Shown piece by piece: positions 3,908-33,985 of a DNA stretch of 64,000 bases. The notes beneath the pieces were generated by a model. It was not told where the DNA came from and made no database searches. It saw only the letters and a program-made list of their open reading frames with translations. Position 1 is the stretch's first letter; every line of letters begins with the position of its first letter. The DNA comes from Hyphomicrobiales bacterium (lineage in GTDB: Bacteria > Pseudomonadota > Alphaproteobacteria > Rhizobiales > Beijerinckiaceae): assembly GCA_900470095.1 (NCBI GenBank), contig UBZM01000035.1, positions 1 through 64,000 on the forward strand, given 5' to 3'. Made by a program: the position numbers and the translations under genes.

Positions 3908-3922
3908 AGCCCCACGCAAGGT
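3908..3922 (+). promoter_or_regulatory. Flagellar box upstream of flgB
   Basis: AGCCCCACGCAAGGT, one of seven 15-bp elements of the form AGC-N6-GCAAG placed before flagellar operons in this window. It ends 41 bp before the flgB start. The 27 bp beginning at 3909 match the region before flgF (23172-23198) at 24 positions, in otherwise unrelated surroundings. Inference: an operator for FtcR or part of a shared promoter. Confidence 0.55.
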
Positions 3923-3963
3923 TGAGCGACTAGTAAAGGGGTGAGACACCCTTGGAGGCCATT

Positions 3964-4353
3964 TTGACGTCCCCCGTCCATTTATTTGATCTCGCATCGC
4001 GACAGAGCCAATGGCTCTCTACGCGGCAGGCTACGGTTGCTGCCAACATTGCGAATGCAAATACCCCCGGCTTCAAGGCTCGGGATGTCGAACCCTTCTC
4101 TGCTTCATTGGACAAGACCAAGCTGCAGATGACAGCGACGAGCGCCCAGCACATCGGCTTTGATGGGCGAACCGTCAGCGCTTCGAAGGTCAAGAAATCC
4201 GACTCGTGGGAGACGTACGTTTCGGGCAATTCGGTGACCATCGAGCAAGAGCTCATGAAGTCAGGAGAGGTGTCGAGGCAGCACCAGCTCAACACCAGCA
4301 TCGTGAAATCATTCCACCGAATGATCATGTCAGCGGTAGGAGGCGGCTCGTGA
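3964..4353 (+). CDS. flgB: Flagellar proximal rod protein FlgB
   Basis: FlgB forms the proximal rod next to the MS ring and export gate. The N-terminus ([22 protein letters not shown]) is followed by the rod/hook signature [15 protein letters not shown], and the C-terminus ends in the helical FlgB/C-type segment. I chose the TTG at 3964 because GGAGG (3954-3958) lies 5 bp before it; an in-frame TTG at 3952 would add four residues. The gene opens the long rod/ring operon and its stop overlaps the GTG start of flgC, which points to translational coupling. Confidence 0.93.
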
Positions 4354-4766
4354 TTGATCCCCTGATCGCTTCCTCGAAGCTTTCGGCCTCGGGGTTGCAG
4401 GCTCAGTCAGTGCGCATGCGCGTGGTGTCTGAGAACATTGCCAACGCCAATTCCACCGGCCGCACTGAGGGTTCCGACCCCTATAGCCGAAAGACAGTGA
4501 CTTTCCGGGCTGAGTTGGACCGCGCCTTGGGCGCCGCCCCGGTCGCTGTGAAATCGATTGGCGCCGACCAGTCGGAATTCCCTGTGCAACATGATCCGGG
4601 AAACCCGGCGGCTGACGCGAACGGCATGGTCAAAATGCCGAACGTAAATGTCCTCACTGAAATGACGGACATGCGCGAGGCCAACCGGTCGTACGAAGCG
4701 AACCTGCAGATGATCAAGCAGGTTCGGTCGATGATCACTTCGACACTCGATCTTCTGAGGACTTGA
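4350..4766 (+). CDS. flgC: Flagellar proximal rod protein FlgC
   Basis: A 138-residue rod subunit that stacks on FlgB. The rod signature appears as [15 protein letters not shown], and the conserved C-terminal block ([20 protein letters not shown]) matches the FlgC/FlgG superfamily. The GTG start at 4350 overlaps the flgB stop by 4 bp. The same frame is open further upstream inside flgB, but the family length and the coupling support this start. Confidence 0.94.
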
Positions 4767-4768
4767 TC

Positions 4769-5104
4769 ATGGTATCGGCACTATCGTCCATCTCCTCCAT
4801 GATCGATCGCGCGGGTGGGATTTCGTCCTCGCAGGCGGTTTCAAACACTGTCGCTCCGACCGCCGGCGGCGTCGCTGGCGCCGGGCAGACGAGCTTCAGC
4901 GATCTCATGGCGCAGGTTGCGACCACCAGCATCGATACGCTGAAGGCCGGCGAAGCCGCATCGATTTCCGGCATTCAGGGCAAGGCCTCGGTTCAGCAGG
5001 TCGTTGAGGCCGTGATGTCGGCGGAACAGACGCTGAAAACGGCGATTGCCATCCGCGACAAGGTCGTGGGCGCGTACCAAGAAATCACACGCATGACCAT
5101 TTGA
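4769..5104 (+). CDS. fliE: Hook-basal body junction protein FliE
   Basis: FliE joins the MS ring/export gate to the rod. The 111 residues include the family core FSDLMAQVATTSIDTLKAGE and the C-terminal block VVEAVMSAEQTLKTAIAIRD. CTGAGGA before the start acts as ribosome binding site for the ATG at 4769. A TTG at 4763 overlapping the flgC stop is an alternative. Position between flgC and flgG follows the rhizobial order. Confidence 0.93.
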   Translation: MVSALSSISSMIDRAGGISSSQAVSNTVAPTAGGVAGAGQTSFSDLMAQVATTSIDTLKAGEAASISGIQGKASVQQVVEAVMSAEQTLKTAIAIRDKVVGAYQEITRMTI

Positions 5105-5120
5105 TCGGGCTTGAACGAAC

Positions 5121-5909
5121 ATGAAAGCACTCGCCATTGCCGCCACCGGCATGAATGCGCAGCAGATCAACCTCGAAGTGATCGCGAACAATATCGCCAA
5201 TGTGAACACGACGGGCTTCAAGGGCTCCCGCGCGGAATTCACAGACCTCATTTATCAGGCGGAGCGCGCACAAGGCGTACCCGCACAGGCTGGGCAGGGG
5301 CCAGTTCCTGAGGGAGCGATGATCGGACTTGGCGTGCGCACAGCCGCTATCCGCAACTTGCACCGCCAGGGGCCACTGACGAACACCTCGAACCAGTTCG
5401 ATGTCGCTTTGAACGGGCGCGGCTGGTTCCAGGTGAACGCGCCGAACGGCGATACGATCTACACTCGGGCTGGCTCGTTCAATAAGAACGGCGACGGCCA
5501 GCTGGTGACGATGGATGGCTATCAGGTTCAGCCGGCGATCCTTGTGCCGGCCAATACCGTCAGCGTCACGATCAACGAAAGCGGCCAGGTCTTCGCCAAG
5601 ATTGATGGCCAGCAGGCGCCTCAGGAGATTGGCCAGCTGTCACTCGCGAACTTCGCCAACGATGCCGGCCTCGAGCCGATCGGGAACAATTTCTATCGAG
5701 AGACGGTCGCATCTGGCGCCCCTGTTGTCGGTGTGGCCGGCGATGTCGGGTTCGGGAAGATCCAGCAGGGATATCTGGAGTCCTCCAACGTCGATGCGAT
5801 CAAGGAGATCACCACCCTCATTTCAGCTCAGCGCGCCTTCGAGATGAACTCGAAGGTGATCCAGGCTGCTGACGAGATGGCGGGCACCGTGTCCAAGGGC
5901 ATCCGGTAG
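5121..5909 (+). CDS. flgG: Flagellar distal rod protein FlgG
   Basis: FlgG builds the distal rod that passes through the P and L rings. The 262-residue length is normal. The N-terminal motif is [19 protein letters not shown], the central block contains GRGWFQV and [16 protein letters not shown], and the C-terminus has [18 protein letters not shown] followed by [17 protein letters not shown]. It lies 16 bp downstream of fliE in the same operon. Confidence 0.96.
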
Positions 5910-5930
5910 GCACCGCCCGGGGAGATCGTC

Positions 5931-6392
5931 ATGAGAGCTCTTACCCGCCTCGGATTCATCGCCGCAGCGCTGCTCGCCGGGGCTTATCAAGCCACGGCCC
6001 AGGATCAAATGCTGCCCGTTCCGACAGCGACCATCTACCCCGGCGACGTAATCGATGCGTCGATGCTGAAGGATCGGGCTTATCCCCCAAACTTCCGCTT
6101 TCGTGTCTCAATGATCGAAAATCCCCGGTCGCTCATTGGCAAGACCGTGCGTCGGACCCTCGTGCCGGGAGAAGCCATTCCTGTCAACGCCGTCGAAGAT
6201 CACCGCTTGGTCTCTCGGGGAGTGCCGACCACAATCATTTTCGAGGAGGGCGGCCTGTCGATCATTGGCGTCGGAACACCTCTCCAGAATGGCGTCGCTG
6301 GACAGATCGTTCAGGTAAAAAACATGGATAGCGGCCGCACGATAATCGGCCGCGTCGACGCCGAGGGGCGGATCCGGATCGGTGTCAATTAA
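5931..6392 (+). CDS. flgA: P-ring assembly chaperone FlgA
   Basis: A periplasmic chaperone needed for polymerisation of FlgI into the P ring. It has a Sec signal peptide (LTRLGFIAAALLAGAYQATA, residues 4-23) and the SAF-type C-terminal domain (IIGVGTPLQNGVAGQIVQVK). At 153 residues it is the short rhizobial form. GGGGAGA lies upstream of the ATG. Its stop is immediately followed by the flgI start, which fits its partnership with FlgI. Confidence 0.92.
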   Translation: MRALTRLGFIAAALLAGAYQATAQDQMLPVPTATIYPGDVIDASMLKDRAYPPNFRFRVSMIENPRSLIGKTVRRTLVPGEAIPVNAVEDHRLVSRGVPTTIIFEEGGLSIIGVGTPLQNGVAGQIVQVKNMDSGRTIIGRVDAEGRIRIGVN

Positions 6393-7496
6393 ATGCGTAA
6401 ATTAATTTCTTTTATTATTGCTGTTGCGCTCGCATTTTCCGGACAAGCATTTGCCTCCACCCGAATTAAGGACGTCGCTTCGGTCCAGGGTGTTCGAGAC
6501 AACCAACTGATCGGATACGGCCTGGTTACGGGCCTTCAGGGCACTGGCGATACGCTCCGAAACTCACAGTTCACCGAGCAATCGATCCAATCGATGCTCG
6601 ACCGGATGGGTGTGAACGTGCGCGAGATGAACCTTCGGACGCGAAACGTTGCAGCGGTAATCGTGACCGCTGACCTTCCGCCCTTCGTTGGCACCGGCTC
6701 GCGGATCGACGTCTCCGTGACGTCCATGGGCGATGCGACTTCGCTGAAAGGCGGCACGCTCATGCTCACCGCGCTGCGTGGTGGTGATGGCCAGGTCTAT
6801 GCGGTAGCGCAAGGCGGCATCGCCGTGTCGGGCTTTTCTGCACAGGGACAGGCTGAAACCCTTACCTCGGGTGTGGCAACCGCAGGGCGGATCCCAAACG
6901 GCGCCCTGATCGAGAAAGAGGTTCAGTCTGGAAGCCGAGAAGCGACGGCAATGTCGTTCGAACTCAAGAACCCAGACTACAAAACCGCGACGCTGATTGC
7001 CGATGCGATCAATGCGTATTCGCAGCGGCGTTTCGGGGTGCGTGTGGCCTCGCCGCGGGACTACAGGACCGTCGCTCTGAGGAAGCCGCGGAATGTTGGC
7101 TCCACGCGCTTTATCGCAGAACTCGGCGATCTGCTCGTCAAGCCCGACAACCCAGCGAAGATCGTCGTCGATCAGCGTACGGGAACGGTGGTGATCGGCA
7201 AGAATGTGCAGATCTCCACGGTGGCCGTAACCCACGGCAACTTCACGATCCGGGTCACTGAAACACCGCAGGTATCGCAGCCGGATCCATTCTCCGACGG
7301 CAGAACCGTTGTGGTTCCCAGAACCGAAATCAACGCGGTCGAGGAGCGTGTGCCCCTTGCGATCGTTGGTGGCTCGGACCTCCAGACACTGGTCAAGGGT
7401 TTGAACCAGATGGGCCTCAAGCCATCTGACGTGATCTCCATCCTGCAGGCCGTCAAAACCTCCGGCTCGCTCCAGGCAGAATTGGTGATTCAATGA
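6393..7496 (+). CDS. flgI: Flagellar P-ring protein FlgI
   Basis: FlgI forms the P ring around the rod in the peptidoglycan layer. It has a signal peptide (LISFIIAVALAFSGQAFA) and the conserved start of the mature protein (TRIKDVASVQGVRDNQLIGY). Later blocks such as LTALRGGDGQVYAVAQGGI and the C-terminal LVKGLNQMGLKPSDVISILQ match the family, and 367 residues is the usual length. The gene directly abuts flgA and overlaps motE by 4 bp. Confidence 0.96.
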   Translation: MRKLISFIIAVALAFSGQAFASTRIKDVASVQGVRDNQLIGYGLVTGLQGTGDTLRNSQFTEQSIQSMLDRMGVNVREMNLRTRNVAAVIVTADLPPFVGTGSRIDVSVTSMGDATSLKGGTLMLTALRGGDGQVYAVAQGGIAVSGFSAQGQAETLTSGVATAGRIPNGALIEKEVQSGSREATAMSFELKNPDYKTATLIADAINAYSQRRFGVRVASPRDYRTVALRKPRNVGSTRFIAELGDLLVKPDNPAKIVVDQRTGTVVIGKNVQISTVAVTHGNFTIRVTETPQVSQPDPFSDGRTVVVPRTEINAVEERVPLAIVGGSDLQTLVKGLNQMGLKPSDVISILQAVKTSGSLQAELVIQ

Positions 7497-8029
7497 ACGC
7501 TCGTGGTTCATTCTTGGGTCGGGTGATCTGTGCGGTCGGACTAGTCGGAATGCTCGCTATTCCGGCGGCGGCCCAACCCCAGACGAAAACTCCAAGCTCT
7601 GGAAAATCCGCTCCACAGCCGGTTTCCGAGAACGCGCGCTACTGCGGAAACATCGCAGATGCAGCTGCTGATGCTCGCTTCGTCCTGCAGAAGGAAGCAC
7701 TCGCCAGAATGGAAGGTGAGATCGAGGGCCGCCTCAAGGTCCTCGAGGCTAAGCGCGCGGAGTACGAAGTCTGGCTCAGGCGTCGCCAGGATGTGCTTGA
7801 AAAGGCCGACGATACCGTCGTGAAGATCTATTCCGGAATGCGTCCCGACGCAGCCGCAGTTCAGATTGCCGCGATGGAGAACGAAGTTGCCGCCGGCATC
7901 TTGGCGAAGCTGAAGGCTCGTACGTCAAGCGCGATCCTGAACGAGATGGAGCCAGCACGCGCCGCTCAACTCGCAAATGCAATTACGGATGCGCCTAACC
8001 GTCGGGCCAAGCCGCAGGAGAAACTCTGA
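7493..8029 (+). CDS. motE: MotE-like periplasmic chaperone
   Basis: In rhizobia MotE is a periplasmic chaperone that stabilises MotC, the partner of MotB. The protein has a signal peptide (residues 10-27, AVGLVGMLAIPAAA), a helical coiled-coil segment (about residues 65-105) and a C-terminal MgtE-N-like repeat region (IYSGMRPDAAAVQIAAME). A Cys in RYCGNIADAAADARF could form the known disulfide-linked dimer. It overlaps both flgI and flgH and has the same position as in Sinorhizobium. motC lies 5.7 kb downstream. Confidence 0.82.
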   Translation: MNARGSFLGRVICAVGLVGMLAIPAAAQPQTKTPSSGKSAPQPVSENARYCGNIADAAADARFVLQKEALARMEGEIEGRLKVLEAKRAEYEVWLRRRQDVLEKADDTVVKIYSGMRPDAAAVQIAAMENEVAAGILAKLKARTSSAILNEMEPARAAQLANAITDAPNRRAKPQEKL

Positions 8030-8727
8030 TGAAGCCCGCAGTCGTTCTCGCAGCGTGTCTGACACTCGGAGCATGCTCAACACGGCCAGCTGACATTGGC
8101 CGCGAACCTGGGATGACGCCGGTCGGTACCGGCCTCTCAGTCCAGCGAACCTCAGTTCCGCACGTCTTCAAGGAGAACGGGCAAAGCTCTGCAGGCTCGA
8201 CCTGGAGCAACGTAAGCGCCGATCTCTTTACGAGCGCTCGCGCGAAGCGTGTCGGTGACATCGTGACGGTGAATATTCAGATCGATGATAAGGCCCAGTT
8301 TGAGAACGCCACGGATCGGTCCCGCAAGTCGAAAATGAATGCTGGCTTGGACTATGCCTTCGCCTTCAAGGGGTGGGATGCCGATGGCCAGGCCGACGCG
8401 AACATTCGATCATCGTCGTCGTCGGATGGACGCGGGACGATCGATCGATCGGAAAAGCTGAGGCTGTCGGTCGCAGCCGTTGTGACCGAGGTCCTGCCGA
8501 ATGGAAATGCAGTGATTAGCGGCTCCCAGGAAGTGAGGGTCAATTTCGAAGTCCGCGTCCTGAACATTGCAGGCATTGTCCGGCCGGGCGAGATCTCGAA
8601 GAAGAACACGATCAGCTATGATCGCATCGCTGAAGCCCGGGTCTCTTATGGCGGCCGTGGCCGGCTCTCGGAAATGCAGCAGCCCGGTTGGGGGCAGCAG
8701 ATCTACGACGCCGTAGCTCCGTTCTGA
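8029..8727 (+). CDS. flgH: Flagellar L-ring lipoprotein FlgH
   Basis: FlgH forms the outer-membrane L ring. A lipobox (LTLGACS) puts the lipidated Cys near residue 17. The core contains SADLFTSARAKRVGDIVTVN and the C-terminal block FEVRVLNIAGIVRPGEISKK with SYDRIAEARVSYGGRG, all typical of FlgH. The length of 232 residues is normal. The ATG overlaps the motE stop (TGATG). Confidence 0.95.
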   Translation: MKPAVVLAACLTLGACSTRPADIGREPGMTPVGTGLSVQRTSVPHVFKENGQSSAGSTWSNVSADLFTSARAKRVGDIVTVNIQIDDKAQFENATDRSRKSKMNAGLDYAFAFKGWDADGQADANIRSSSSSDGRGTIDRSEKLRLSVAAVVTEVLPNGNAVISGSQEVRVNFEVRVLNIAGIVRPGEISKKNTISYDRIAEARVSYGGRGRLSEMQQPGWGQQIYDAVAPF

Positions 8728-8744
8728 ACCGATAGGAGCGGCAC

Positions 8745-9248
8745 ATGGCCCGAGACGCGACCCTGAACGAAAGTGAGCCGGGGCTGCTGGATCAGCTGCG
8801 TCTGGCAGCAACCATCCTGGCCCTGAGCCTCCTTGCCATTGGACTGGGGGGCGGCGCTGGGCTCGTCATGATGAAGAGCCTCGAAGACACGATCATCGAG
8901 CGCTACAAGGCCCAGAGGGAAGAGGCAAAGCCAATCCCCAGCAAATACGTGGGGGACATCGAACTTAGGAAGATACCGGCCGTCATAGCAAATCTGGCAA
9001 ATTCCACGACCGACTGGGTCAGGATTGAATCGTCGATCGTATTTACGCGAGATCCCTCTAAACCTTCGGAGATCGTCGTTGCCGAAATCCGCCAGGATCT
9101 TGTCGCCTATCTCCGATCGGTCTCGCTTGCCCAAATTCAAGGTCCCAGTGGACTGCTGCATTTGCGGGAGGATATGAACGAGCGAGCGAAGCTTCGGTCG
9201 AATGGTAAAATTCAAGAGATAATCGTCGAGACGCTCGTGGTTCAATGA
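8745..9248 (+). CDS. fliL: Flagellar basal body-associated protein FliL
   Basis: FliL is an inner-membrane protein that surrounds or stabilises the stator. It has one membrane helix (about residues 24-46, AATILALSLLAIGLGGGAGL) and a periplasmic stomatin-like domain ending in SGLLHLREDMNERAKLRSNG and IQEIIVETLVVQ. The 167-residue length fits the family. The ribosome binding site is GATAGGAG. It ends the flgB-fliL run; an 84-bp gap separates it from fliP. A second, shorter protein with FliL-like features occurs at 34831-35286. Confidence 0.88.
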   Translation: MARDATLNESEPGLLDQLRLAATILALSLLAIGLGGGAGLVMMKSLEDTIIERYKAQREEAKPIPSKYVGDIELRKIPAVIANLANSTTDWVRIESSIVFTRDPSKPSEIVVAEIRQDLVAYLRSVSLAQIQGPSGLLHLREDMNERAKLRSNGKIQEIIVETLVVQ

Positions 9249-9332
9249 GTTTAATTCGGAACTATTCGAGTGTATTCTTAGGGCGGGCGCCATTTTTGTT
9301 CCTGCTTTCCCACCAATTTGATTGATCGATAA

Positions 9333-10103
9333 ATGTTCATCCGTCTCATTCTAGCGAGCGCTTTTGCGTTCGCCACGACCGCTGCCTATGCGCAGGTTCC
9401 GAGCCTGGAGAACCTCATCCCGCAAGGCGATGGAACAGCAAGCGGGCGGATGATCCAGATCATCGCCCTGATGACCGTGCTATCGCTCGCGCCGAGCTTG
9501 CTGATCATGGTCACGAGCTTCACGAGATTTGTCGTGGCATTCTCGTTCCTGCGTTCAAGTTTGGGGCTTCAAAGCACCCCCGCGAACCTCTTCCTGATCA
9601 GCCTCGCCCTGTTCATGACGTTCTTCGTCATGGCGCCAACCTTTGATAAGGCCTGGCAAGACGGGGTGCGGCCGCTAACTGAGAACCGCATCTCAGAGGC
9701 TGAAGCCTACGATAAGGTGTCGCAGCCGTTCCGTGAATTTATGATGCAGCACGTGCGTCCGAAGGATCTTCAGACGATGATCGACCTCGCGTCGGCCAGG
9801 ACGCCCTCTCTGGTCGATGGCCTGAAGTCCGAGGACGGAGCATCTGCGAGCAATCAGAGGATCGATCTGCGTGTCTTGATCCCGGCCTTCATGATTTCGG
9901 AATTGCGGCGCGGTTTCGAAATTGGATTTCTCATCGCCCTACCCTTCCTGGTGATCGACATGATCGTCGCGGCACTCGTGATGAGCATGGGCATGATGAT
10001 GATGCCGCCCACAGTCATTGCGCTGCCCTTTAAGATCCTATTTTTTGTGCTCATCGACGGCTGGAGTATTCTCGTGAGCAGCCTCATTAAATCGTATTTT
10101 TAG
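9333..10103 (+). CDS. fliP: Flagellar export gate protein FliP
   Basis: FliP forms the core of the type III export gate with FliQ and FliR. It carries a cleavable signal peptide and four hydrophobic segments. The family blocks MTVLSLAPSLLIMVTSFTRF and FVVAFSFLRSSLGLQSTPAN are clear, as is the C-terminal GFEIGFLIALPFLVIDMIVA. The length is 256 residues. fliQ and fliR lie more than 20 kb downstream in block C, and no fliO was seen in the window. Confidence 0.96.
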   Translation: MFIRLILASAFAFATTAAYAQVPSLENLIPQGDGTASGRMIQIIALMTVLSLAPSLLIMVTSFTRFVVAFSFLRSSLGLQSTPANLFLISLALFMTFFVMAPTFDKAWQDGVRPLTENRISEAEAYDKVSQPFREFMMQHVRPKDLQTMIDLASARTPSLVDGLKSEDGASASNQRIDLRVLIPAFMISELRRGFEIGFLIALPFLVIDMIVAALVMSMGMMMMPPTVIALPFKILFFVLIDGWSILVSSLIKSYF

Positions 10104-10147
10104 CGACCGATTTTTATCGCAATACCCATGCCCTGACGGCTGAAGAA

Positions 10148-10162
10148 AGCCTGGGGCAAGAT
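10148..10162 (+). promoter_or_regulatory. Flagellar box upstream of fliF
   Basis: AGCCTGGGGCAAGAT, the weakest of the seven AGC-N6-GCAAG elements. It ends 57 bp before the fliF ATG, in the 116-bp gap after fliP. In Brucella FtcR is known to act at the fliF promoter, which makes this copy a good test site. Inference only. Confidence 0.4.
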
Positions 10163-10219
10163 TGGTAGGGCAATAGTGATTGTCCGGACTCATTTTGATT
10201 TTCAACATTGAGATTGCGC

Positions 10220-12543: not shown

Positions 12544-12546
12544 GCC

Positions 12547-13725: not shown

Positions 13726-13729
13726 CGGC

Positions 13730-14938: not shown

Positions 14939-14947
14939 GTCCTGTGC

Positions 14948-16784: not shown

Positions 16785-16866
16785 GGGAATGGTGCCAGCC
16801 TGCCAGCACGTAAAATGCGGGATGTTGGTGTAAGGGCTGGCAAATGGCAGGTGGAGCTTGGCGCCC

Positions 16867-18486: not shown

Positions 18487-19550
18487 GCGCGCGATCTCGT
18501 CATGACATAGAAGAGGATTTGGGCGACGGCCTTGTAGAACTCGGTGGGGATCATTCGATCCACCTGAACATTGGCGTACATGGACCTTGCCAGAGGCTTG
18601 TCTTCAATCACGGGAATCCCGTGTTTCTCGGCAATTTCACGAATTTTTAGAGCGATCAGATCCTGCCCCTTCGCAACAACAACGGGGGCGCTGGCCTCAT
18701 TCTGGTTGTAGCGGAGGGCAATTGCGAAATGTGTCGGGTTGGCGATGACGATCGTCGCCTTGGGGACTGACGCCAGCATGCGCTTGCGCGAACGATCCTG
18801 GGCAATCGAGCGCAGGCGCGCTTTGACCATAGGGTCGCCCTCGGCCTGCTTGAACTCGTCTTTGACCTCTTGTCGCGTCATCATGAGGTCGCGATTCCAT
18901 TTAAAGCGCGACCAAATCAGGTCAGCTGCCACGACGACGATTGTGGCGATGCAGACGGCCGAGACCAGTCGCACGGAAATGCTCAGGATTAACTCCGGGA
19001 TCAGGCTCGGATCGCTGAACATGGAATTCACAACCTTGTGCTGCTCGGACTTGAGAAGGAGGACTACGACGATGCTGACAGCTGTGAATTTGAAGAGCGA
19101 TTTTAGAAATTCGACCTGTCCCTGCCTTCCGAAAATCCGGAAAAAACCAGAGACGGGTGATATTTTTTGCCACTTGGGGCGAATTCTCTCGCCCACAAAA
19201 CTCGGCACATTTTGAGAGAGCGATCCAACCAGGCTGCATCCCGCAAGGAGCGCGACAATGGGGAGCATGAACAGCCCGACCTCTGCCGCGACGGCATAAA
19301 TCAGCGCACTGGCGTCCACGCCGGAGTCCAAGCGAAAATCATGCGCGCGATCGATGAAGAGCGACAGCTTGCTGGTGAGGGCTTTGACGTTCTCTCGCGC
19401 ATTGAATGTGAGGACGAGGAGGAAGCCGATAAAGGATGCAAACATCGGGGCTTCGCGGGAGAATGGGACGTTGCCCTTCTCGATCGCATCTCGGACTTTT
19501 TTGTCCGATGCCTGTTCGGTTTTGCTTTCCTTGTCAGCCTCCTCCGACAT
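18483..19550 (-). CDS. flhB: Flagellar export switch protein FlhB
   Basis: FlhB controls substrate specificity of the flagellar export apparatus. Four membrane segments lie in residues 31-210. The cytoplasmic domain has the autocleavage motif NPTH at residues 271-274 (TIVIANPTHFAIALRY) and the downstream block VVAKGQDLIALKIREIAEKH with GIPVIEDKPLARSMY. The length of 355 residues is normal. It is encoded downstream of fliG on the minus strand, as in Sinorhizobium. Confidence 0.96.
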   Translation of the reverse strand: MSEEADKESKTEQASDKKVRDAIEKGNVPFSREAPMFASFIGFLLVLTFNARENVKALTSKLSLFIDRAHDFRLDSGVDASALIYAVAAEVGLFMLPIVALLAGCSLVGSLSQNVPSFVGERIRPKWQKISPVSGFFRIFGRQGQVEFLKSLFKFTAVSIVVVLLLKSEQHKVVNSMFSDPSLIPELILSISVRLVSAVCIATIVVVAADLIWSRFKWNRDLMMTRQEVKDEFKQAEGDPMVKARLRSIAQDRSRKRMLASVPKATIVIANPTHFAIALRYNQNEASAPVVVAKGQDLIALKIREIAEKHGIPVIEDKPLARSMYANVQVDRMIPTEFYKAVAQILFYVMTRSRA

Positions 19551-20598: not shown

Positions 20599-20612
20599 TG
20601 CGCGTCTCTCGC

Positions 20613-20948: not shown

Positions 20949-20997
20949 AGGAATAATCCTGAAAAGAATGATTGAAGGGAAATATCGGCGGCGGGCT

Positions 20998-23058: not shown

Positions 23059-23111
23059 AGGAGCACCCTTTTTGTTAAAGCAATAAACTCAGATCCCCCG
23101 ATACAAGGCGT

Positions 23112-23126
23112 GGCTTGCGCGTAGCT
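23112..23126 (-). promoter_or_regulatory. Flagellar box upstream of motA
   Basis: On the minus strand this reads AGCTACGCGCAAGCC, fitting the AGC-N6-GCAAG element. It is 53 bp upstream of the motA start and is oriented toward motA. A second, opposite element for flgF lies 45 bp away in the same divergent spacer. Inference: operator or promoter part. Confidence 0.5.
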
Positions 23127-23170
23127 GGAGCGGATGGATTTTTTTGCCGACAGTTTGGATCGGGAACGCA

Positions 23171-23185
23171 AGCCCCACGCAAGGT
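23171..23185 (+). promoter_or_regulatory. Flagellar box upstream of flgF
   Basis: AGCCCCACGCAAGGT, identical over all 15 bp to the copy before flgB, and similar for 13 bp further downstream (GATTAGTA versus GACTAGTA). It ends 88 bp before the flgF start, farther than the other six copies, so the transcript probably has a longer leader here. Confidence 0.55.
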
Positions 23186-23273
23186 AGCGCGATTAGTAGG
23201 TGGTATGGCGTCGCCGATTTCATTCCGCGGCGGAATCAATAGGGCCATTCCGGGCCTCTTGCGGAGAATATGG

Positions 23274-25354: not shown

Positions 25355-25371
25355 AATCATTTCCAAAAACC

Positions 25372-25386
25372 AGCTTCGCGCAAGCG
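25372..25386 (+). promoter_or_regulatory. Flagellar box upstream of flgE
   Basis: AGCTTCGCGCAAGCG, an AGC-N6-GCAAG element in the 74-bp gap between fliI and flgE, ending 42 bp before the flgE start. Together with the flhA and flgJ copies it shows the partial dyad AGCTT-N5-AAGC. Confidence 0.55.
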
Positions 25387-25428
25387 TGAGCATTTATTGC
25401 GATTAATCAGAATTAGGAGAAGCGGATA

Positions 25429-26646
25429 ATGAGCCTATTTAGCGTCCTGCGAACCGGCGTTTCGGGCATGAACGCCCAATCCACGAAGCTCGGTACCGTG
25501 GCCGAGAATATCGCCAACTCGAACACCACCGGTTTCAAGCGCTCGGGTATCGAGTTTTCGTCACTGATCCTGTCGCAGGACGACAGCTCCTACACCTCCG
25601 GGGCGGTTGAGACGAGGGTTCGCCGTGCGATCTCCGATCCTGGCTCCATCGCCTATACGACGTCGGGATCGGATCTCGCAGTCTCGGGAAATGGCTTCTT
25701 TGTGGTGAGCGACGCGAAGGGAACGCCACTGCTGACGCGCGCCGGGAATTTTGTGGTCGACGGACCATCCGGCAACCTCGTGAATGCGGCTGGTTTCAAG
25801 CTGATGGGCTACAGCCTCGAGAATGGCGCGGCGGACATCCTGCTGAACAGCTCGAGCAACCTGGTCCCAGTCAGTATCAAGTCGCTGAGCATGAAGGCGA
25901 CGCCGTCGACAGAGGGCACGTTCAAGGGCAACTTGCCGGTTGACGCGCCGGTGATTGCCGCCCCTCCCCCCGCTTCGGCGAATTTCAGCAAGAAGTCGTC
26001 CATCGAGGTCTACGACAACGTCGGCAATCCGATGAAGCTCGACATCTACATGACGAAGTCGAGTGCCGGTTGGGAGGTGGCTGTCTATAACGGCGACAAC
26101 CCAGCCAGCTTCCCGGCGACACCGATCGCGACAGAAACGCTGACGTTCAACGGAACGGGCCAGATGTCGGGCCCGACCAGCATGTCATTCGGCATCCCGA
26201 ACGGCGCGCCATTCACGCTCGATATGACGGGGATGAGCGAGTTGGGCGGCGATTACGCGGTCACCGGCGGTGCGAATGGCAACAAGCCGTCCGCGGTAAA
26301 GGGAGCCGAGTTCGGCGAGGACGGCACCGTCTATGCGGTTTACGAGAACGGTTCGCGAGTGGCGGCCTTCAAGGTTCCGTTGGCGACCGTCAGGAGCCCG
26401 GACAACCTGACGCCGCTTGCGGGCAACGTGTACGAAGCCAGCATCGCCTCTGGCGGTTACGAGCTCGGGACGCCGGGCCAGTCCGGCTTCGGTTCGATCA
26501 GATCGGGCGCCCTGGAGCAGTCCAACGTCGACATTGGCGCCGAGCTCACGAGCATGATTGAGGCGCAGACGGCGTTCTCCGCAAATTCGAAGTCGTTTCA
26601 GACCGGCAACGAGATGCTCGACGTTCTGATCAATCTCAAGCGCTAG
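25429..26646 (+). CDS. flgE: Flagellar hook protein FlgE
   Basis: FlgE polymerises into the flexible hook. The product has 405 residues. The N-terminal rod/hook motif is AENIANSNTTGFKRSGIEFS, the D1 region contains SGNGFFVVSDAKGTPLLTRA, and the C-terminal D0 helix is LEQSNVDIGAELTSMIEAQT with SKSFQTGNEMLDVLINLKR. A ribosome binding site (AGGAGAAG) lies before the ATG. It heads the flgE-flgK-flgL-flaF-flbT-flgD-fliQ operon. Confidence 0.96.
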   Translation: MSLFSVLRTGVSGMNAQSTKLGTVAENIANSNTTGFKRSGIEFSSLILSQDDSSYTSGAVETRVRRAISDPGSIAYTTSGSDLAVSGNGFFVVSDAKGTPLLTRAGNFVVDGPSGNLVNAAGFKLMGYSLENGAADILLNSSSNLVPVSIKSLSMKATPSTEGTFKGNLPVDAPVIAAPPPASANFSKKSSIEVYDNVGNPMKLDIYMTKSSAGWEVAVYNGDNPASFPATPIATETLTFNGTGQMSGPTSMSFGIPNGAPFTLDMTGMSELGGDYAVTGGANGNKPSAVKGAEFGEDGTVYAVYENGSRVAAFKVPLATVRSPDNLTPLAGNVYEASIASGGYELGTPGQSGFGSIRSGALEQSNVDIGAELTSMIEAQTAFSANSKSFQTGNEMLDVLINLKR

Positions 26647-26672
26647 CCGCCAGGACTTCGAGGTTCTAACTC

Positions 26673-28136
26673 ATGACACTAAGCGCAGCGCTCAACACTG
26701 CTCGATCGTCACTGCAGGCTACGCAGACGCAAATTTCCGTCGTCTCGCGGAACACGGCAGGATCTTCCGACCCCTATTATTCCAGGAAGATCGCGTCGGT
26801 TATCTCGCAGGGCGGAGCCGTGCAGGTCACGATCTCCCGGGCGAGCAATCTGGCGCTTTATTCCAAGATGCTGGTTGCCACGTCCGGAATGGCGGGCAAC
26901 CAGGCCATCACAGCTGGCCTGGATCAGCTGAACGCGACCATCGGTGATACTGCCCTCAATGCATCACCGGCCGCCAAGATCGGGATGCTAAAGTCGGCAC
27001 TGTCCCAACTTGCGAAGGCACCGGATAGCTCGACCTTCGCAAAGGCTTTTCTGAACTCGGCCAGTGACTTGGTGAAGTCGCTGAATGATGCGACTGCCGA
27101 GGTTCAGAAAGCCCGGCATGACGCCGACACTGCGATCGCAAACTCCGTTGGTCGGATCAATGGCCTGCTGACGAAGTTTGAGGCGGCGAACCAGGAGGTC
27201 ATGCGGGGCTACGCTCTGGGCAGCGACATCTCTGACAGCCTCGATGCCCGGGATGCATTGATCAGCCAGTTGTCGGAGGAAATGGGCGTCCAGATCGTTG
27301 AGCGCGAGGGCGGTGACCTCGCGCTTTACACTGATAGCGGCGTTCCCCTTTTCGATCGTTCGCCTAGGAAAGTGAGCTTCCAACCGACATCGGCATTTGG
27401 GCCGTCTACCGTGGGCAACGCGGTGTTCATTGACGGCATTCAGGTGACCGGTGCCGGCGCTCCGATGCCTCTGAATACGGGCAATCTGGTAGGCCAAGCG
27501 AAGATCCGCGACGACATTTCGGTTGGGTACCAGTCGCAGCTGGACGAGCTCGCCAGGAACGTGATCGAGGCCTTTAAGGAGACCGATCAGTCTGGCTCTG
27601 GGCTCCCTGATCTGGCGGGCATCTTCAGCTTCGCAGGCAGCACAGGCGTTCCGCCCAATCCTGCACCGTCGGGATTGGCTGGGCTCCTGAGGCTGAATCC
27701 AGCGCTCGCTGGTCAGCCGGACGGTGGCTTGGCGGCTCTCCGTGACGGTGGGATCAACGGCGCCGCCTACCGTCATAACCCGGCAGCCCCAGGCTCCGAC
27801 GTCGCCTTTTCCGGCCGTCTGTATGGCCTCGTGTCCGAGATGGAGAAGAGCCGACCGGTTGATCCGGCTTTCGGCTTTGGCGCCACTCAGTCGCTGCAGG
27901 ATTTTGCGTCGTCCTCTGCAGGTTGGCTGCAGGGCCTCAGGGCATCGGCCAAGTCTGAGGCCACCTACTCCGAGATGCTGCTCTCGCAGGCTTCCGAAGC
28001 GATGTCGAATGCTACGGATGTGAACGGTGACGATGAAACGGCTCGGATGCTCCAGCTCGAACATGCTTACTCCGCATCCGCAAAACTCATCTCGACGATC
28101 AACGAGATGATGAAAACCCTCTTGGCGATGGTCTGA
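26673..28136 (+). CDS. flgK: Hook-filament junction protein FlgK
   Basis: FlgK is the first hook-filament junction protein. It is 487 residues long. The N-terminal segment (LNTARSSLQATQTQISVVSR) and C-terminal segment (LLSQASEAMSNATDVNGDDE, then YSASAKLISTINEMMKTLLA) form the D0/D1 helices, with a variable middle. In the N-terminal signature the usual NIAN is replaced by NTAG (SRNTAGSSDPYYSRK), as in rhizobial FlgK. It is followed by flgL after 2 bp. Confidence 0.93.
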   Translation: MTLSAALNTARSSLQATQTQISVVSRNTAGSSDPYYSRKIASVISQGGAVQVTISRASNLALYSKMLVATSGMAGNQAITAGLDQLNATIGDTALNASPAAKIGMLKSALSQLAKAPDSSTFAKAFLNSASDLVKSLNDATAEVQKARHDADTAIANSVGRINGLLTKFEAANQEVMRGYALGSDISDSLDARDALISQLSEEMGVQIVEREGGDLALYTDSGVPLFDRSPRKVSFQPTSAFGPSTVGNAVFIDGIQVTGAGAPMPLNTGNLVGQAKIRDDISVGYQSQLDELARNVIEAFKETDQSGSGLPDLAGIFSFAGSTGVPPNPAPSGLAGLLRLNPALAGQPDGGLAALRDGGINGAAYRHNPAAPGSDVAFSGRLYGLVSEMEKSRPVDPAFGFGATQSLQDFASSSAGWLQGLRASAKSEATYSEMLLSQASEAMSNATDVNGDDETARMLQLEHAYSASAKLISTINEMMKTLLAMV

Positions 28137-28138
28137 AA

Positions 28139-29188
28139 ATGAAGACTTCATTCATTTCGACAACGACGCTCTGGAACGCGCCGCGCGCCGGCCTGAACAA
28201 GATGCAGGCGGATCTTGCGAAGGCCACGAAGGAAATGACCAGCGGCCGAGACACTGATGTGGGGCTGCGGCTGGGTTCTCGTGCCGGTGAAGCATTCTCC
28301 CTTCGCCAGGAGATGGAGCATCTCGGTTCAATCATCGACAGCAATGCGACCGTGAAGGTTCGACTCGAAGCCTCGACTGCGGCCCTGGCTCGAGCCCGAA
28401 CGTCGTCGGAGAAATTTGCGGCGACCCTCATTGCTTCGCCGGTTGGTGATCGGAATCTGCCGGTGGTCCTGCTTGAAGCGAAGAGCACGCTGGCGGGACT
28501 GGTTGGCGACCTCAATCGGGCTGTGAATGGCCAGTACATCTTCGGCGGGATCAACAGTGGGGAGCGGCCAATCGTCGAAGATGGCAGCATGCCGCCGGCG
28601 GCCGCCAAGAGCGCTATCGATGCCGCGTTCTCGGCCTTCTTCGGATTTCCTCAATCGAGCCCATCTGTCGCTTCGATCGACGAAGCCCAGATGAACGCAT
28701 TCCTGGACGGCCCATACAAGGCCCTCTTCGATAACGGGCCTTGGGCTGCGACCTGGTCGAACGCCTCCAATCAATCGATCACGAGCCAGATCTCGCCATC
28801 GGAAGTGATCGAGACCTCGGTCAGTGCGAACGAGAGTGCCGTCCGCCAGCTCGCGATGGGCTACTCGATGATCCTTGAACTCGGGATCTCGAATTTGGGA
28901 GCGGACGTCCGGGAAACCCTTTTGGCGCGCGCGATCAAAACGATCGGCGAAGGCGGCAGCGCGATGTCCGACCTTGAGGCGCAAATTGGCATGTCTCAGG
29001 AGAAAATCGAACATGCCAACTCGCGGATGGATATCCAAAAGGACGTCTTCAACGAGAAACTGTTCGGCTTGGAGGGCGTCGATCCACTCGAAGCCAAGAC
29101 GCGCATCGATCATCTGACGACGCAGATCCAGACGTCATTTTCTTTGACCGCTCAGCTCCGCAATCTGAGTCTCATTAATTTCATTTGA
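28139..29188 (+). CDS. flgL: Hook-filament junction protein FlgL
   Basis: FlgL is the second hook-filament junction protein and a flagellin homologue. The N-terminal helix (FISTTTLWNAPRAGLNKMQA with KATKEMTSGRDTDVGLRLGS) and the C-terminal helical region (KTRIDHLTTQIQTSFSLTAQ, ending LRNLSLINFI) are typical. The length is 349 residues. It lies directly after flgK. Confidence 0.93.
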   Translation: MKTSFISTTTLWNAPRAGLNKMQADLAKATKEMTSGRDTDVGLRLGSRAGEAFSLRQEMEHLGSIIDSNATVKVRLEASTAALARARTSSEKFAATLIASPVGDRNLPVVLLEAKSTLAGLVGDLNRAVNGQYIFGGINSGERPIVEDGSMPPAAAKSAIDAAFSAFFGFPQSSPSVASIDEAQMNAFLDGPYKALFDNGPWAATWSNASNQSITSQISPSEVIETSVSANESAVRQLAMGYSMILELGISNLGADVRETLLARAIKTIGEGGSAMSDLEAQIGMSQEKIEHANSRMDIQKDVFNEKLFGLEGVDPLEAKTRIDHLTTQIQTSFSLTAQLRNLSLINFI

Positions 29189-29198
29189 GAGAGCCACC

Positions 29199-29546
29199 AT
29201 GAGTTTTGCCGCCTATTTTGAGATGGCCGACGATGATCCGCTGGAGTGCCGAAAGCGCGAACGGGACATTTTCGACAGCGCAATCGAGAAGCTGAGGTCG
29301 ATTGAGCACTGCAATTCGGTATCGGACGAAGTCGTGTCGGCAGTCGCCTACGTCCAGAAGCTCTGGATAGCACTCATTCAGGACCTCAAGACTCCCGGTA
29401 ATGCCCTTTCGGACAGCCTGAAGTCGAACCTCATTTCAATCGGCATGTGGGTGGTCAATGCCACAACCACGATCGTTCGAGGCGATTTTTCGAAGCTGGA
29501 AGAGATCATCAGGATCAACACTCTGATCAGGGAGGGCTTGGAATGA
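29199..29546 (+). CDS. flaF: Flagellin secretion/assembly regulator FlaF
   Basis: FlaF is a small helical alphaproteobacterial protein that promotes flagellin translation and secretion and works with FlbT. The 115 residues contain the family features RERDIFDSAIEKLRS near the start and LSDSLKSNLISIGMWVVNAT. GAGAGAGCC upstream may serve as ribosome binding site. Its stop overlaps the flbT start (ATGA). Confidence 0.93.
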   Translation: MSFAAYFEMADDDPLECRKRERDIFDSAIEKLRSIEHCNSVSDEVVSAVAYVQKLWIALIQDLKTPGNALSDSLKSNLISIGMWVVNATTTIVRGDFSKLEEIIRINTLIREGLE

Positions 29547-29965
29547 AAGCGAAGATGCGATTTTCGCTGAAGCCGGGGGAGCGGATTTTCATCAACGGGG
29601 CTGTGATCTGCGTCAGTCAGAAAGTGACGCTGAGCCTGCTGAACGACGCATCGTTCCTCCTGGAATCGTACGTGATGCAGTTTGATGATGCGAACACGCC
29701 GCTCCGGCAGCTGTATTTCATCACGCAGACCATGATCATCGATCCCAGCTCTCGATCTCAAATGAAAGCTGCGTTCCTGGAGCGCTTCGCGCTCATCGCC
29801 GGGGAGTATGCCGCGGCCGAAGAGGCACGGTCACTGCAGGCGGTCCACGATCTCGTCACCGGCGAACGCTTCTTCGATGCGCTGAAATTGCTGCGGACGA
29901 TGTTCCCCATCGACGACGCGAAACGTCCGGTTGACCGCTCGGGCACTGCCCTTCGCGCCGCTTGA
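29543..29965 (+). CDS. flbT: Flagellin post-transcriptional regulator FlbT
   Basis: FlbT binds flagellin mRNA leaders and controls their stability or translation in alphaproteobacteria. From the ATG overlapping flaF the product has 140 residues, with the family blocks LKPGERIFINGAVICVSQK, DASFLLESYVMQFDDANTPL and LYFITQTMIIDPSSRSQM. The flaF-flbT pair suggests that the flagellin gene at 35593, with its long leader, is under translational control. Confidence 0.94.
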   Translation: MKAKMRFSLKPGERIFINGAVICVSQKVTLSLLNDASFLLESYVMQFDDANTPLRQLYFITQTMIIDPSSRSQMKAAFLERFALIAGEYAAAEEARSLQAVHDLVTGERFFDALKLLRTMFPIDDAKRPVDRSGTALRAA

Positions 29966-29984
29966 ATTACGAGGTTTAGCAACG

Positions 29985-30386
29985 ATGGACGTCTCTTCGA
30001 TCGTCACTGGAATGTCCGCTCCGCAGCACCGCGGCTCCACCGAAAAAGGCTCATCTGCGGTGAGCTACGACGCATTCCTTGGCCTTCTCCTGACCCAGTT
30101 GAAGAACCAGGACCCCACGGCACCAATGGAATCGACCGATTACATGGCGCAGCTGGCGAGCTTCTCGCAGGTCGAGCAGCAGACCAAGACCAACGGCAAG
30201 CTGGATGCTCTCTTGACGTCGTCCGCACTCTCCCAGGCTGATACTGTGATTGGTCGCACAGTGACCTCGGCCGACGGAAAGGTCACTGGTGAGGTGGCAT
30301 CGGTGAAGGTCTACTCCGATGGACTCGTGGCTACGACGGTCGACGGCAAGGAGATCATTCTAAGTCCCGGCATTACGGTGAAGTAA
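29985..30386 (+). CDS. flgD: Hook-capping protein FlgD
   Basis: FlgD is the scaffold that caps the growing hook. The 133-residue product is the short rhizobial form. The conserved N-terminal block is SYDAFLGLLLTQLKNQDPTA with MESTDYMAQLASFSQVEQQT; the C-terminal part contains TVIGRTVTSADGKVTGEV. GAGG lies 11 bp upstream of the ATG at 29985. The stop TAA overlaps the fliQ start (TAATG). Confidence 0.94.
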   Translation: MDVSSIVTGMSAPQHRGSTEKGSSAVSYDAFLGLLLTQLKNQDPTAPMESTDYMAQLASFSQVEQQTKTNGKLDALLTSSALSQADTVIGRTVTSADGKVTGEVASVKVYSDGLVATTVDGKEIILSPGITVK

Positions 30387-30652
30387 TGACCGCAGTTGAT
30401 GCACTGGAGATGGTTCGGGCAGCGATCTGGACCATCATCGTCGGTGCGGGCCCCGCGGTCGTTGCAGCTATGCTTGTCGGCATAGCAATCGCCCTGGTTC
30501 AGGCTCTCACTCAGATCCAGGAGGTCACACTGACCTTTATCCCGAAGATCATTGCGATTTTGCTGGTGACGCTTGTCACCGGCACATTTGTTGGATCCCA
30601 GATCTTTTCATTTACAGAGGCCGTCTACGGAAAAATCGCTACCGGCTTTTGA
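30386..30652 (+). CDS. fliQ: Flagellar export gate protein FliQ
   Basis: FliQ is an 88-residue, two-helix component of the export gate. The helices are about residues 13-38 (IVGAGPAVVAAMLVGIAIAL) and 50-74 (IIAILLVTLVTGTFVGSQIF), with the conserved loop QALTQIQEVTLTFIPK. It overlaps flgD and precedes flhA. Confidence 0.95.
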   Translation: MTAVDALEMVRAAIWTIIVGAGPAVVAAMLVGIAIALVQALTQIQEVTLTFIPKIIAILLVTLVTGTFVGSQIFSFTEAVYGKIATGF

Positions 30653-30684
30653 GCTCCGACGTCGCCCATTTTTCCAAGGAAGAG

Positions 30685-30699
30685 AGCTTGGCGCAAGCT
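30685..30699 (+). promoter_or_regulatory. Flagellar box upstream of flhA
   Basis: AGCTTGGCGCAAGCT, the best copy of the element: a perfect inverted repeat AGCTTG-GCG-CAAGCT. It ends 49 bp before the flhA start in the 96-bp gap after fliQ, and suggests that flhA-fliR has its own promoter. Confidence 0.6.
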
Positions 30700-30748
30700 A
30701 CGTAGTCCAAGAACGATCCGAAGCATTTTTGTTTTCGGATATTTCGGC

Positions 30749-32824
30749 ATGAATTCCAATCAGGCTGCTAAATCGGATCGCGGCCGTGACATCGCATTTG
30801 CTGGCGGTGTCGTAGCGATCCTGGCGATTTTATTTCTGCCCATTCCAGCGATTCTCATCGACATGGGCCTCGCCCTTTCGATTGCCCTGTCCGTACTGAT
30901 CCTGATGGTGGCGTTGTGGATCCACAAGCCACTGGAATTCTCGGCCTTCCCTGTCGTCCTGCTCATTGCAACGCTATTGCGGCTCGCATTGAGTATTGCG
31001 TCCACGCGATTGATCCTCGCCGACGGGCACAAGGGGGTCGATGCAGCCGGCCATGTGATCGCCGGCTTCTCGCGGTTCGTGATGAGCGGCGACTTTGTCA
31101 TCGGCATTGTCGTCTTCATCATTCTGGTCACCGTGAACTTCCTGGTGATCACGAAGGGCGCGACCCGCATTGCGGAGGTTGGCGCCCGCTTCACCCTCGA
31201 CGCGATCCCGGGCAAGCAGATGGCGATTGATGCCGATCTGAACGCTGGCCTGATCGACGAGAAGGAGGCGCAGCAGCGACGCCGCGAGCTAGAGGAAGAG
31301 AGCTCGTTCTTTGGCTCGATGGACGGTGCCTCAAAATTCGTTCGCGGCGAGGCGATCGCCTCTCTCATCACGATCGCCGTCAACATTTTTGGTGGCATCA
31401 TCATCGGCGTAACTCGCCATGGGATGCCGCTGTCAAAGGCGGCCGACGTATTTACGCAGCTTTCCGTCGGTGACGGCCTCGTCAGCCAGATCCCGGCCCT
31501 CATCGTCTCTCTGGCGGCTGGCCTGCTGGTGTCGAAGGGGGGAACGCGGGGCCAGGCCCAGCAGGCCGTCCTCGGGCAGCTGAGCGCCTATCCAAGGGCG
31601 CTCTGGGTGGCATCCGTACTGATGATGGTCTTCGCCATCATGCCAGGTCTCCCGCTTGTGCCGTTTATGGCGCTCTCCCTCATGATGGCGTTCGTTGCCT
31701 ACACGATCCCGAAGCGCATCGCGGAAGAAGCAGGACGAGTGGCTGCCCAGAAGCAGGAAGCTGACAGGGTCAAGCAGATCGAGGCGAAGGAATCCGTGAG
31801 GGAGTCCCTGAAGACCGCCGAGATCGAGCTTTGCCTCGGCCAGCACCTGGCCTCAATGCTCAACCATTCAAGAGCGGAGTTGCCGCACCGGATTGCGAAA
31901 ATGCGCCGGCGGTTTGCGCAGGATTACGGCTTCGTCGTTCCCGACATCAAGCTCTCGGACGGCCCCTTGATGTCGGCGAAGAGCTACCAAATTCGGATCC
32001 ACGGGACGATTGTAGCGTCGCATGAGCTGCGACCTGGCGAGGTTATGGTTCTGACGGGTGACGGCCCGGTTCCGGACGTGCCTGCTGAAGAGACGCGGGA
32101 GCCCGCTTTCGGATCAAAGGCCTATTGGGTGACGGAAGCCCTTGTCGGTGAGGTGAAGCGACAGGATTTCAAAACGGCCGACTGCAACTCAATTCTTCTC
32201 ACTCACCTGAGTGAGGTAATCCGGAACAATCTCCCGCAATTCCTATCCTATCGGGACATGCGAACGCTGCTGGACCGCCTGGAGCCCGAGTACAAGCGCC
32301 TTCTGGACGATATCTGCCCCTCTCAGATTTCATATTCTGGATTGCAGGCTGTCTTGAAGCTGCTTCTGGCGGAGCGAGTTTCTATCCGCAATCTGCATCT
32401 CATCCTCGAAGCCGTCGCTGAATTTGCGCCGCATGCCAGGCGGGCGGAGCAACTCGTGGAGCACGTTCGTACCCGAATTGCCCAGCAGATATGCGGCGAT
32501 CTCGCTGAAGGCGGGCCGCTCAACATCCTGCGTCTGGGAAACAAGTGGGATCTCGCCTTCCATCAGGGGCTCAAGCGTGATGCCAAAGGAGATGTGATCG
32601 AGTTCGATATCGATCCGCGCCTGATCGAGCAATTCGGCCAAGAGGCCTCAGAGGTGATCAAGCAGACATTCGTAAAGGCCAAAAAATTCGCGATCGTCAC
32701 CTCTCCGGACTCCCGTCCGTATGTGCGGATGATTGTGGAGCGAATGTTCTCCTCGCTGCCAATCCTCTCGCATCTCGAGATTGCCCGGGGCGTCGAAGTG
32801 AATTCGCTAGGGGCTATCGCGTGA
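30749..32824 (+). CDS. flhA: Flagellar export gate protein FlhA
   Basis: FlhA is the largest export-gate protein, with eight membrane helices in residues 1-330 and a cytoplasmic domain that binds chaperone-cargo complexes. Signature segments are [40 protein letters not shown] and the FHIPEP loop [20 protein letters not shown]. The length is 691 residues. The stop overlaps the GTG start of fliR. Confidence 0.97.
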
Positions 32825-33576
32825 GCTCATATAGCTCCGATACACTTCTGACCGTATTTCTTATCTTTTGCCGTGTCGGAGCGGGAATGATGATGGCTCC
32901 TGGCTTGTCCAGTAGCCGCATCCCAATGAATGTCCGCCTCTTCCTTGCGCTCACCGTCTCTCTGGCAGTCTCTCCGCTTATCATGGACCGCTTTGCCCAA
33001 GGTGTTGGAGCGCTGCCGCCAGCTACTCTTTTTGGTCTCATCGGGACGGAGCTTCTGACCGGGATCGTGATCGGCCTTCTAGGCCGGGTGTATTTCTTCG
33101 CTCTTCAAACGATGTCGAACGCCGCGGCCATGGCGATCGGTTTTGGAAACATCCCCGGAGCTCCCTTTGACGATTCAGAGCCCCTCCCCGCGATCACGAC
33201 GATGATCATGATGGCAGCGACGGCCATGCTGTTCATGATGGACTTGCATCTTGAGCTCATCAAAGGCGTCGTCGCGTCCTATGACCAGTTGCCATCGGGC
33301 CAATGGTTCGGTCCGCGAATGTCCCTGATGCGAATTGTCGACCAATCGACCGCAGCCTTCGTCCTCGCTCTCCGGATCAGCGCGCCCTTCATCGTCTATT
33401 CGATTGTCGTCAACCTCGCGGTGGGCTTGACCAACAAGCTCACCCCGCAGATCCCCATCTTCTTCCTGGCGACGCCCTTCGTGATGATGGGGGGGCTGTT
33501 CATGGTCTATTTCTTGATCTCCGACTACCTGACGCTCTTCCTTGAAGAATTTGCCTCGTGGTCGGTTCACGGATGA
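32821..33576 (+). CDS. fliR: Flagellar export gate protein FliR
   Basis: FliR completes the FliPQR core. The 251-residue product has about six membrane helices, the block [20 protein letters not shown], and [20 protein letters not shown]; the C-terminal helix is [20 protein letters not shown]. The GTG at 32821 overlaps the flhA stop, so the two are coupled. Confidence 0.95.
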
Positions 33577-33583
33577 CCGCGAA

Positions 33584-33985
33584 ATGAAGGATCGCATCAG
33601 GAAAATTGAGAGAATTCGGCAGGTGCAGCAGCATATGCATCGTGTCGCCGAACTCCGAATGTCGGGTCTGGAAAATTCCCGTCGGATTAATCAGAGCGAG
33701 CAACTCGATTTAATTTCCGCGTTAAATGAAGACAGCAGCTTTCAAGGGCTCTTCGTTGACGCGACGGCCAGACGCCTGAAGTCGCTGACGCATCAGGGCG
33801 ACCAGATCGCGACGGAATGTCTGGCCCAACGCACTGTGGTGATTGAACGCGGCCTGCAGCTCAAGCGAACAGAGAAAACCTGCGACCGACTGAAGGAGCA
33901 GGATCGGCGAGAAACCGAGAAGCGGGAGCTGCAGAACATACTCGAGCAGATCATTTCTCGTTCACACAAGCTTCCCGCAAGCTAG
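33584..33985 (+). CDS. FliJ-like coiled-coil export chaperone
   Basis: A 133-residue, highly charged, almost entirely helical protein (for example GLQLKRTEKTCDRLKEQDRR). It sits 8 bp after fliR, where rhizobial loci carry a poorly conserved export chaperone of FliJ type. No other fliJ is present in the window, so FliJ is the most likely role, but the call rests on size, coiled coil and position. The start ATG at 33584 has no strong ribosome binding site. Confidence 0.6.
   Translation: MKDRIRKIERIRQVQQHMHRVAELRMSGLENSRRINQSEQLDLISALNEDSSFQGLFVDATARRLKSLTHQGDQIATECLAQRTVVIERGLQLKRTEKTCDRLKEQDRRETEKRELQNILEQIISRSHKLPAS
33969..33983 (+). promoter_or_regulatory. Flagellar box upstream of the flgJ-like gene
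   Basis: AGCTTCCCGCAAGCT, an AGC-N6-GCAAG element with the dyad AGCTT-N5-AAGCT. It covers the last codons of the fliJ-like gene and ends 45 bp before the flgJ-like ATG. Its position inside coding sequence weakens it, but the match to the flhA copy is 13 of 15. Confidence 0.45.

Follow-up and report, generated by a model that had tools for sequence, protein, structure and literature searches.

A tandem promoter box shared by seven flagellar units of a Hyphomicrobiales locus, and FtcR as its candidate regulator

The DNA analyzed here is a stretch of 64,000 nucleotides from a Hyphomicrobiales bacterium (assembly GCA_900470095.1, contig UBZM01000035.1, positions 1 to 64,000), hereafter called the window. 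It carries a flagellar locus together with ftcR, which encodes an orphan regulator of the OmpR/PhoB type. A preliminary description, made from the sequence alone, had pointed to a 15-bp box shared by seven flagellar promoters; we followed up this box and its relation to FtcR. The features are given below, with scores from a matrix that was trained outside the window.

3159..3842, plus strand: ftcR, orphan OmpR/PhoB-type regulator (PF00486; 40-56% identity to orthologues; coordinates of the conserved part, from Met44 of the 3030-3842 frame)
3905..3923, plus strand: tandem box upstream of flgB (matrix score 18.9; -10-like sequence at 3931-3936)
10145..10163, plus strand: tandem box upstream of fliF (matrix score 15.5; weak -10-like CAATAG at 10171-10176)
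23111..23129, minus strand: tandem box upstream of motA (matrix score 24.6; -10-like sequence at 23103-23098)
23168..23186, plus strand: tandem box upstream of flgF, divergent from the motA box (matrix score 24.0; -10-like sequence at 23194-23199)
25369..25387, plus strand: tandem box upstream of flgE (matrix score 20.1; -10-like sequence at 25395-25400)
30682..30700, plus strand: tandem box upstream of flhA (matrix score 15.7; weak -10-like CAAGAA at 30708-30713)
33966..33984, plus strand: tandem box upstream of the flgJ-like gene (matrix score 22.8; -10-like sequence at 33992-33997)
35287..35592, plus strand: flagellin upstream region, without a box (best matrix score -13.5)

All seven 15-mers were found in place and on the expected strand. 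Their spacer, previously given as six bases, is five bases long, and the fixed part reads AGC-N5-GCAAG. The 15-mer lies 41 bp from the start codon at flgB, 42 bp at flgE, 45 bp at fliF and flgJ, 49 bp at flhA, 53 bp at motA, and 79 or 88 bp at flgF, where two ATG codons are possible. The earlier range of 41-57 bp for six units and 88 bp for the seventh holds at 41-53 bp and 88 (or 79) bp; the value of 57 bp was not reproduced and depends on the start codon chosen. Flagellin had been placed outside the set, and its upstream score of -13.5 agrees with this. The region upstream of ftcR likewise has no box (best matrix score -4.0). Relatives carry a box about 135-146 bp before flagellin.

The motif was learned blind by unsupervised expectation maximization (EM) on 179 non-coding upstream regions from nine relatives with FtcR; the window was excluded, and genomes G053, G058 and G037 were dropped from training before the count. 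EM over all 323 upstream regions, coding sequence included, had given codon-periodic patterns only and was rerun on the non-coding ones. The best motif, present in about 78 of the 179 regions, was cGccAGCctCGCGCAAGCct.gcc..ctA, with ctA...T in a shifted frame. On both strands of the 64 kb, this window-free matrix placed the seven sites at ranks 1-7, with the scores listed above (24.6 down to 15.5), and the eighth place scored 10.5. Twenty first-order Markov sequences of window length had best scores of 6.1-19.7, and none held more than three places above 10. Because such sequences reach 19.7, one site of 15 could be due to chance, but seven could not. A motif derived from relatives therefore returned exactly these seven promoters as its top matches, which bears out the proposal of a common box.

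The short pattern behaved differently in the window and in the genome. AGC-N5-GCAAG occurred nine times in the window versus 3.6 expected (standard deviation 1.8), and none of 100 shuffles reached nine. The two extra matches were both on the minus strand, at 1403 and at 18586, the latter inside flhB; we rejected it as a box and treated it as codon-driven, because the FlhB codons beneath it are conserved and relatives have the match at the same position. In the whole 7.17-Mb genome, the pattern was counted 298 times versus 288 for a reversed control, the kind of equal frequency that the preliminary description had itself named as refuting the box; judged by that rule, the short loose pattern by itself would fail, and it proves little. 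As a marker, MAGCYYCRCGCAAG alone also separated FtcR-positive from FtcR-negative genomes poorly.

The full unit consists of a tandem direct repeat with an 11-bp period, GCMAGCYTCRC followed by GCAAGCYT, and then a -10-like TAnnnT at a fixed distance. Columns 1-8 (GCMAGCYT) and 12-19 (GCAAGCYT) are near-identical and 11 bp apart. Among 81 unique sites (76 from relatives and 5 from the window), columns 1-8 matched the columns 11 further with an identity of 0.573 (chance, 0.275), compared with 0.488 (chance, 0.254) for the best six-base inverted arm. The 85 unique sites of named loci gave 0.553 for the direct repeat versus 0.43-0.47 for the inverted one, although these sites were picked by the matrix (score >15) and the test is not wholly independent of it. 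In the same 85 matrix-picked sites, A4 and its direct-repeat partner, A15, are both A in 100%, whereas T18, the partner that a dyad would require, is T in 24%. The best copies had earlier been taken for dyads; this reading was rejected, and the dyad is the weaker symmetry. AAGCTT equals its own reverse complement, which gives the box its dyad look. TAnnnT begins at column 27, and its TA (columns 27-28) keeps a constant distance from the repeat; of the seven window sites, all have A28 and five have TA. Given this position, the first half-site would cover the -35 region, with a spacer of 16-17 bp, and the box appears to overlap the -35 region of a promoter type common to the seven units, with TAnnnT as the putative -10 element.

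We then considered conservation. FtcR orthologues (40-56% identity, >170 bits) were present in 12 of 60 relatives and in 8 of the 36 of the same genus. Eleven of the 12 neighbourhoods contained flagellar genes; that of G053 had none but ftcR. The eight same-genus relatives had 9-13 places scoring above 12 per 80 kb, mostly before flagellar genes, with boxes at flgB, flgE, motA, motE, fliF, flgJ, flgD, flgC, duf1217 and flagellin. Across the order, FtcR was found at an expectation value (E) of 1e-35 in 83 of 297 genomes. The order-wide sample comprised 20 genomes and four named plasmid loci, 23 of these 24 entering the counts (the Microvirga VF16 plasmid locus was excluded). A box 20-160 bp upstream of a flagellar gene was called gene-linked, and loci were counted if they had at least three flagellar genes. 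The 20 such order-wide loci (17 genomes and three named plasmid records) held 66 gene-linked boxes, with at least one in 18 loci; G317 shares its genus with G059, a training genome. The named set, the 80 best among a larger number of FtcR loci, included 53 with at least three flagellar genes; these held 90 gene-linked boxes, with at least one in 41 loci, but the set overlaps with the order-wide one (G232 is L139/L187, G113 is L192 and G297 is L169) and the two are not independent. All order-wide and named loci were selected for having FtcR. Permuted matrices, 12 in all, yielded at most one gene-linked site per set (0 or 1). In Sinorhizobium meliloti, the box precedes flhA, flgE, flgB and flgJ. 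The box is a real conserved promoter element.

FtcR, encoded at the same locus as the boxes, has an OmpR/PhoB winged helix (PF00486; PDB profile matches). Its fold matches include DNA-bound PmrA, KdpE and PhoP as well as a phosphorylation-independent orphan regulator, at a mean predicted local distance difference test score (pLDDT) of 74.7 for the model and a whole-chain template modelling (TM) score of at most 0.58. The helix ESHISKLRKKLR is common to the S. meliloti, Phyllobacterium and Shinella orthologues, and the FtcR of the window has EGHVSKLRKKLR.

Presence of the box was next compared with that of the regulator and of a second flagellar system. A primary FlhA is present in all 37 genus genomes, and a second one of lateral type (784-799 bits) was found in exactly nine, which are those with FtcR; the second FlhA of G029 and G036 is of a different type (668-690 bits). 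At E 1, the nine FtcR-positive genomes had 9-14 profile matches each versus 0-7 in the 28 others (Mann-Whitney p ~4e-6), although eight of the nine had contributed training sites and the independent number is the 11 of the window's own genome. Six of these 11 lie outside the window contig, within the FtcR-negative range of 0-7; the excess therefore sits in the flagellar locus. At E 3, 6 of 17 matches in this genome fell in the window contig, which makes up 0.9% of it, and the fliF site was not among the 17. In the 80 kb of this genome (G000) that hold its other flagellar cluster, no score exceeded 9.6. Order-mates lacking an FtcR orthologue had 0-4 matches at E 1, and G053 and G059 had 12 and 10. 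Overall, the box is present with the regulator and absent without it, with G037, G058, G136 and G152 as exceptions.

Several observations weigh against tying the box to FtcR. Apart from the training overlap just mentioned and the unspecific short pattern, no window site fell below E 0.1 in the whole-genome profile search. Primary flagellar clusters also contain sites: the best scores were 12.7 in G009, 16.9 in G010 and 15.4 in G025 (GRTMACCCYCARGCAAGA-like). The distant genomes G037 and G058 bear FtcR, but their boxes are weak or absent, with only 2 and 4 matches at E 1. No gene-linked box within 20-160 bp was found in G136 and G152, which have flagellar genes, or in 12 of the 53 named loci (L136, L149, L163, L164, L166, L170, L171, L172, L173, L178, L192 and L203); several of the loci that lack one have strong sites outside this limit. 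Nor can every match be read as a target, since several strong matches from outside the flagellar loci recur in FtcR-negative genus genomes, at a polyprenyl synthetase gene (G014) and a DUF2336 gene (G001, G008, G020 and G033). Finally, the available part of PMC9456535 gives TGTGGGCA as the motif from chromatin immunoprecipitation sequencing (ChIP-seq) of Brucella melitensis FtcR. This motif and the box are both attributed to orthologous FtcR, yet their letters disagree; TGTGGGCA occurs once in the window, at 54971, and not at a flagellar promoter.

Other explanations of the box were weighed against these data. Its overlap with the -35 region and its fixed distance to a -10-like element would also suit a dedicated sigma factor that recognizes the box as its -35/-10 pair, with FtcR acting elsewhere. 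We regard this as improbable: an 11-bp tandem repeat suits a dimeric regulator rather than a sigma factor, and the survey of FliA and sigma-54 types, to which extracytoplasmic-function sigma factors did not belong, offered no candidate. A sigma-28 promoter was rejected, FliA being above the cut-off in none of four genomes, where only weaker sigma-like matches appeared; a sigma-54 promoter was rejected as well, as -24/-12 sites with at most one mismatch numbered 17 versus 16.5 by chance. The CtrA-type sequence TTAA-N7-TTAA had no match in the window. It is also unlikely that the box is read by a factor other than FtcR, be it a different regulator of the flagellar locus or a second FtcR-like protein, with FtcR merely travelling in the same gene cluster. 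The link between FtcR and the box is one of co-occurrence, and the deviating Brucella motif (PMC9456535, as far as available) would fit such a case, but G053 lost FlhA and FliF and still keeps FtcR and many boxes, so that the pair persists without a flagellar cluster. Chance similarity among promoters, which the genome-wide count of the loose pattern might suggest, is hardly credible in view of the blind rediscovery of the seven sites and of the conservation relative to permuted matrices.

Taken together, these findings indicate that the box is very probably an activator-dependent promoter element and the candidate site of FtcR (Rem/LafR), whose binding and activation we infer. The preliminary description had offered two readings, an FtcR operator or a piece of a common promoter; both fit a tandem OmpR/PhoB-type site over the -35 region, and both are supported by the order-wide conservation in FtcR loci and the absence from the other flagellar cluster. 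Tandem boxes of the OmpR/PhoB family, among them the pho box bound by PhoB, have head-to-tail half-sites 11 bp apart and replace the -35 element just upstream of the -10. The present box resembles them in its two half-sites 11 bp apart over the -35 region, before the -10, and differs in the half-site, GCAAGCYT, and in its regulator, FtcR being an orphan. One FtcR subunit would bind each of the two head-to-tail GCAAGCYT half-sites, and the pair would cover the -35 region, with TAnnnT beginning 15 bp downstream of the first base of the second half-site. FtcR may bind as PhoB does on the pho box, contacting RNA polymerase with the housekeeping sigma factor, and may thereby turn on together the seven lateral-flagellum units for basal body, hook and motor, flagellin being presumably under another control in this genome.

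LafR, the Bradyrhizobium relative of FtcR, reportedly needs no phosphorylation, and the regulons of Rem (S. meliloti) and LafR pair an orthologous regulator with the same gene set (PMC8429497); the available part of that paper gives no binding site for Rem or LafR. In Methylosinus sporium 5, a novel 'Motif 3' with no regulator assigned was described in 2025 at five of the same promoters (PMC12403871, in part). Its likeness to the box is one of promoter position; if the letters match as well, the Methylosinus data would supply start-site evidence. The lateral flagellar system of Rhizobiales, Methylobacterium included, has already been described (PMC6406911, in part). No published box for Rem, FtcR or LafR was found in the sources as available, which did not cover the founding Rem and FtcR papers; a prior description is possible, and the novelty of the box is provisional.

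The 64-kb contig of the flagellar locus also carries repC, repB and repA (49391-53033), named from the sequence of their open reading frames. Similar repABC genes occur on Bosea and Ancylobacter plasmids, and in Phyllobacterium the whole lateral set is on a plasmid. On the Microvirga sp. VF16 plasmid (L247), an ftcR-like gene lies near repC, with no annotated flagellar gene within the fetched 40 kb. Two ftcR genes occur on some Methylobacterium and Methylorubrum contigs (locus pairs L145/L178, L139/L187 and L144/L196); in the first two pairs, the genes are about 36-37 kb apart, one near flhB/fliK and the other near flagellin.

Genome-wide matches were examined in two genus-mates, G167, which was outside training, and G053, whose FtcR is 79% identical to that of G167. 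Of the 19 G167 matches at E 0.5, ten lie before genes of motility or chemotaxis: motA, two flgE-like genes, flgB, two flagellins, a CheY-like receiver, two methyl-accepting chemotaxis proteins and a HAMP protein (motA, flgB, one flgE and the flagellins named from their N-termini; box distances, 24-288 bp). Two of the other nine precede GGDEF/EAL genes, and seven precede other, unnameable or unclear genes. In G053, where neither FlhA nor FliF was found, 11 matches were obtained genome-wide at E 0.5; three lie 97-128 bp before GGDEF/EAL genes, and the other eight have no common theme. Two of the boxes in G053 lie close to a globin gene, at 4-5 kb from ftcR (loci L033, L265-L272 and L289-L309).

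In the sources as available, FtcR, Rem and LafR figure as master activators of flagella, both in plant symbionts and in Brucella. With the matrix that finds the box, regulons can be predicted across the order, the two flagellar systems within a cell can be distinguished by promoter, and the published FtcR motif TGTGGGCA can be put to a direct test. We suggest only tentatively that the box is an order-wide DNA code of FtcR/Rem/LafR, defining a regulon that reaches beyond flagella. If so, a flagellar master regulator would have outlived the flagellum in the G053 lineage as a regulator of cyclic di-GMP.

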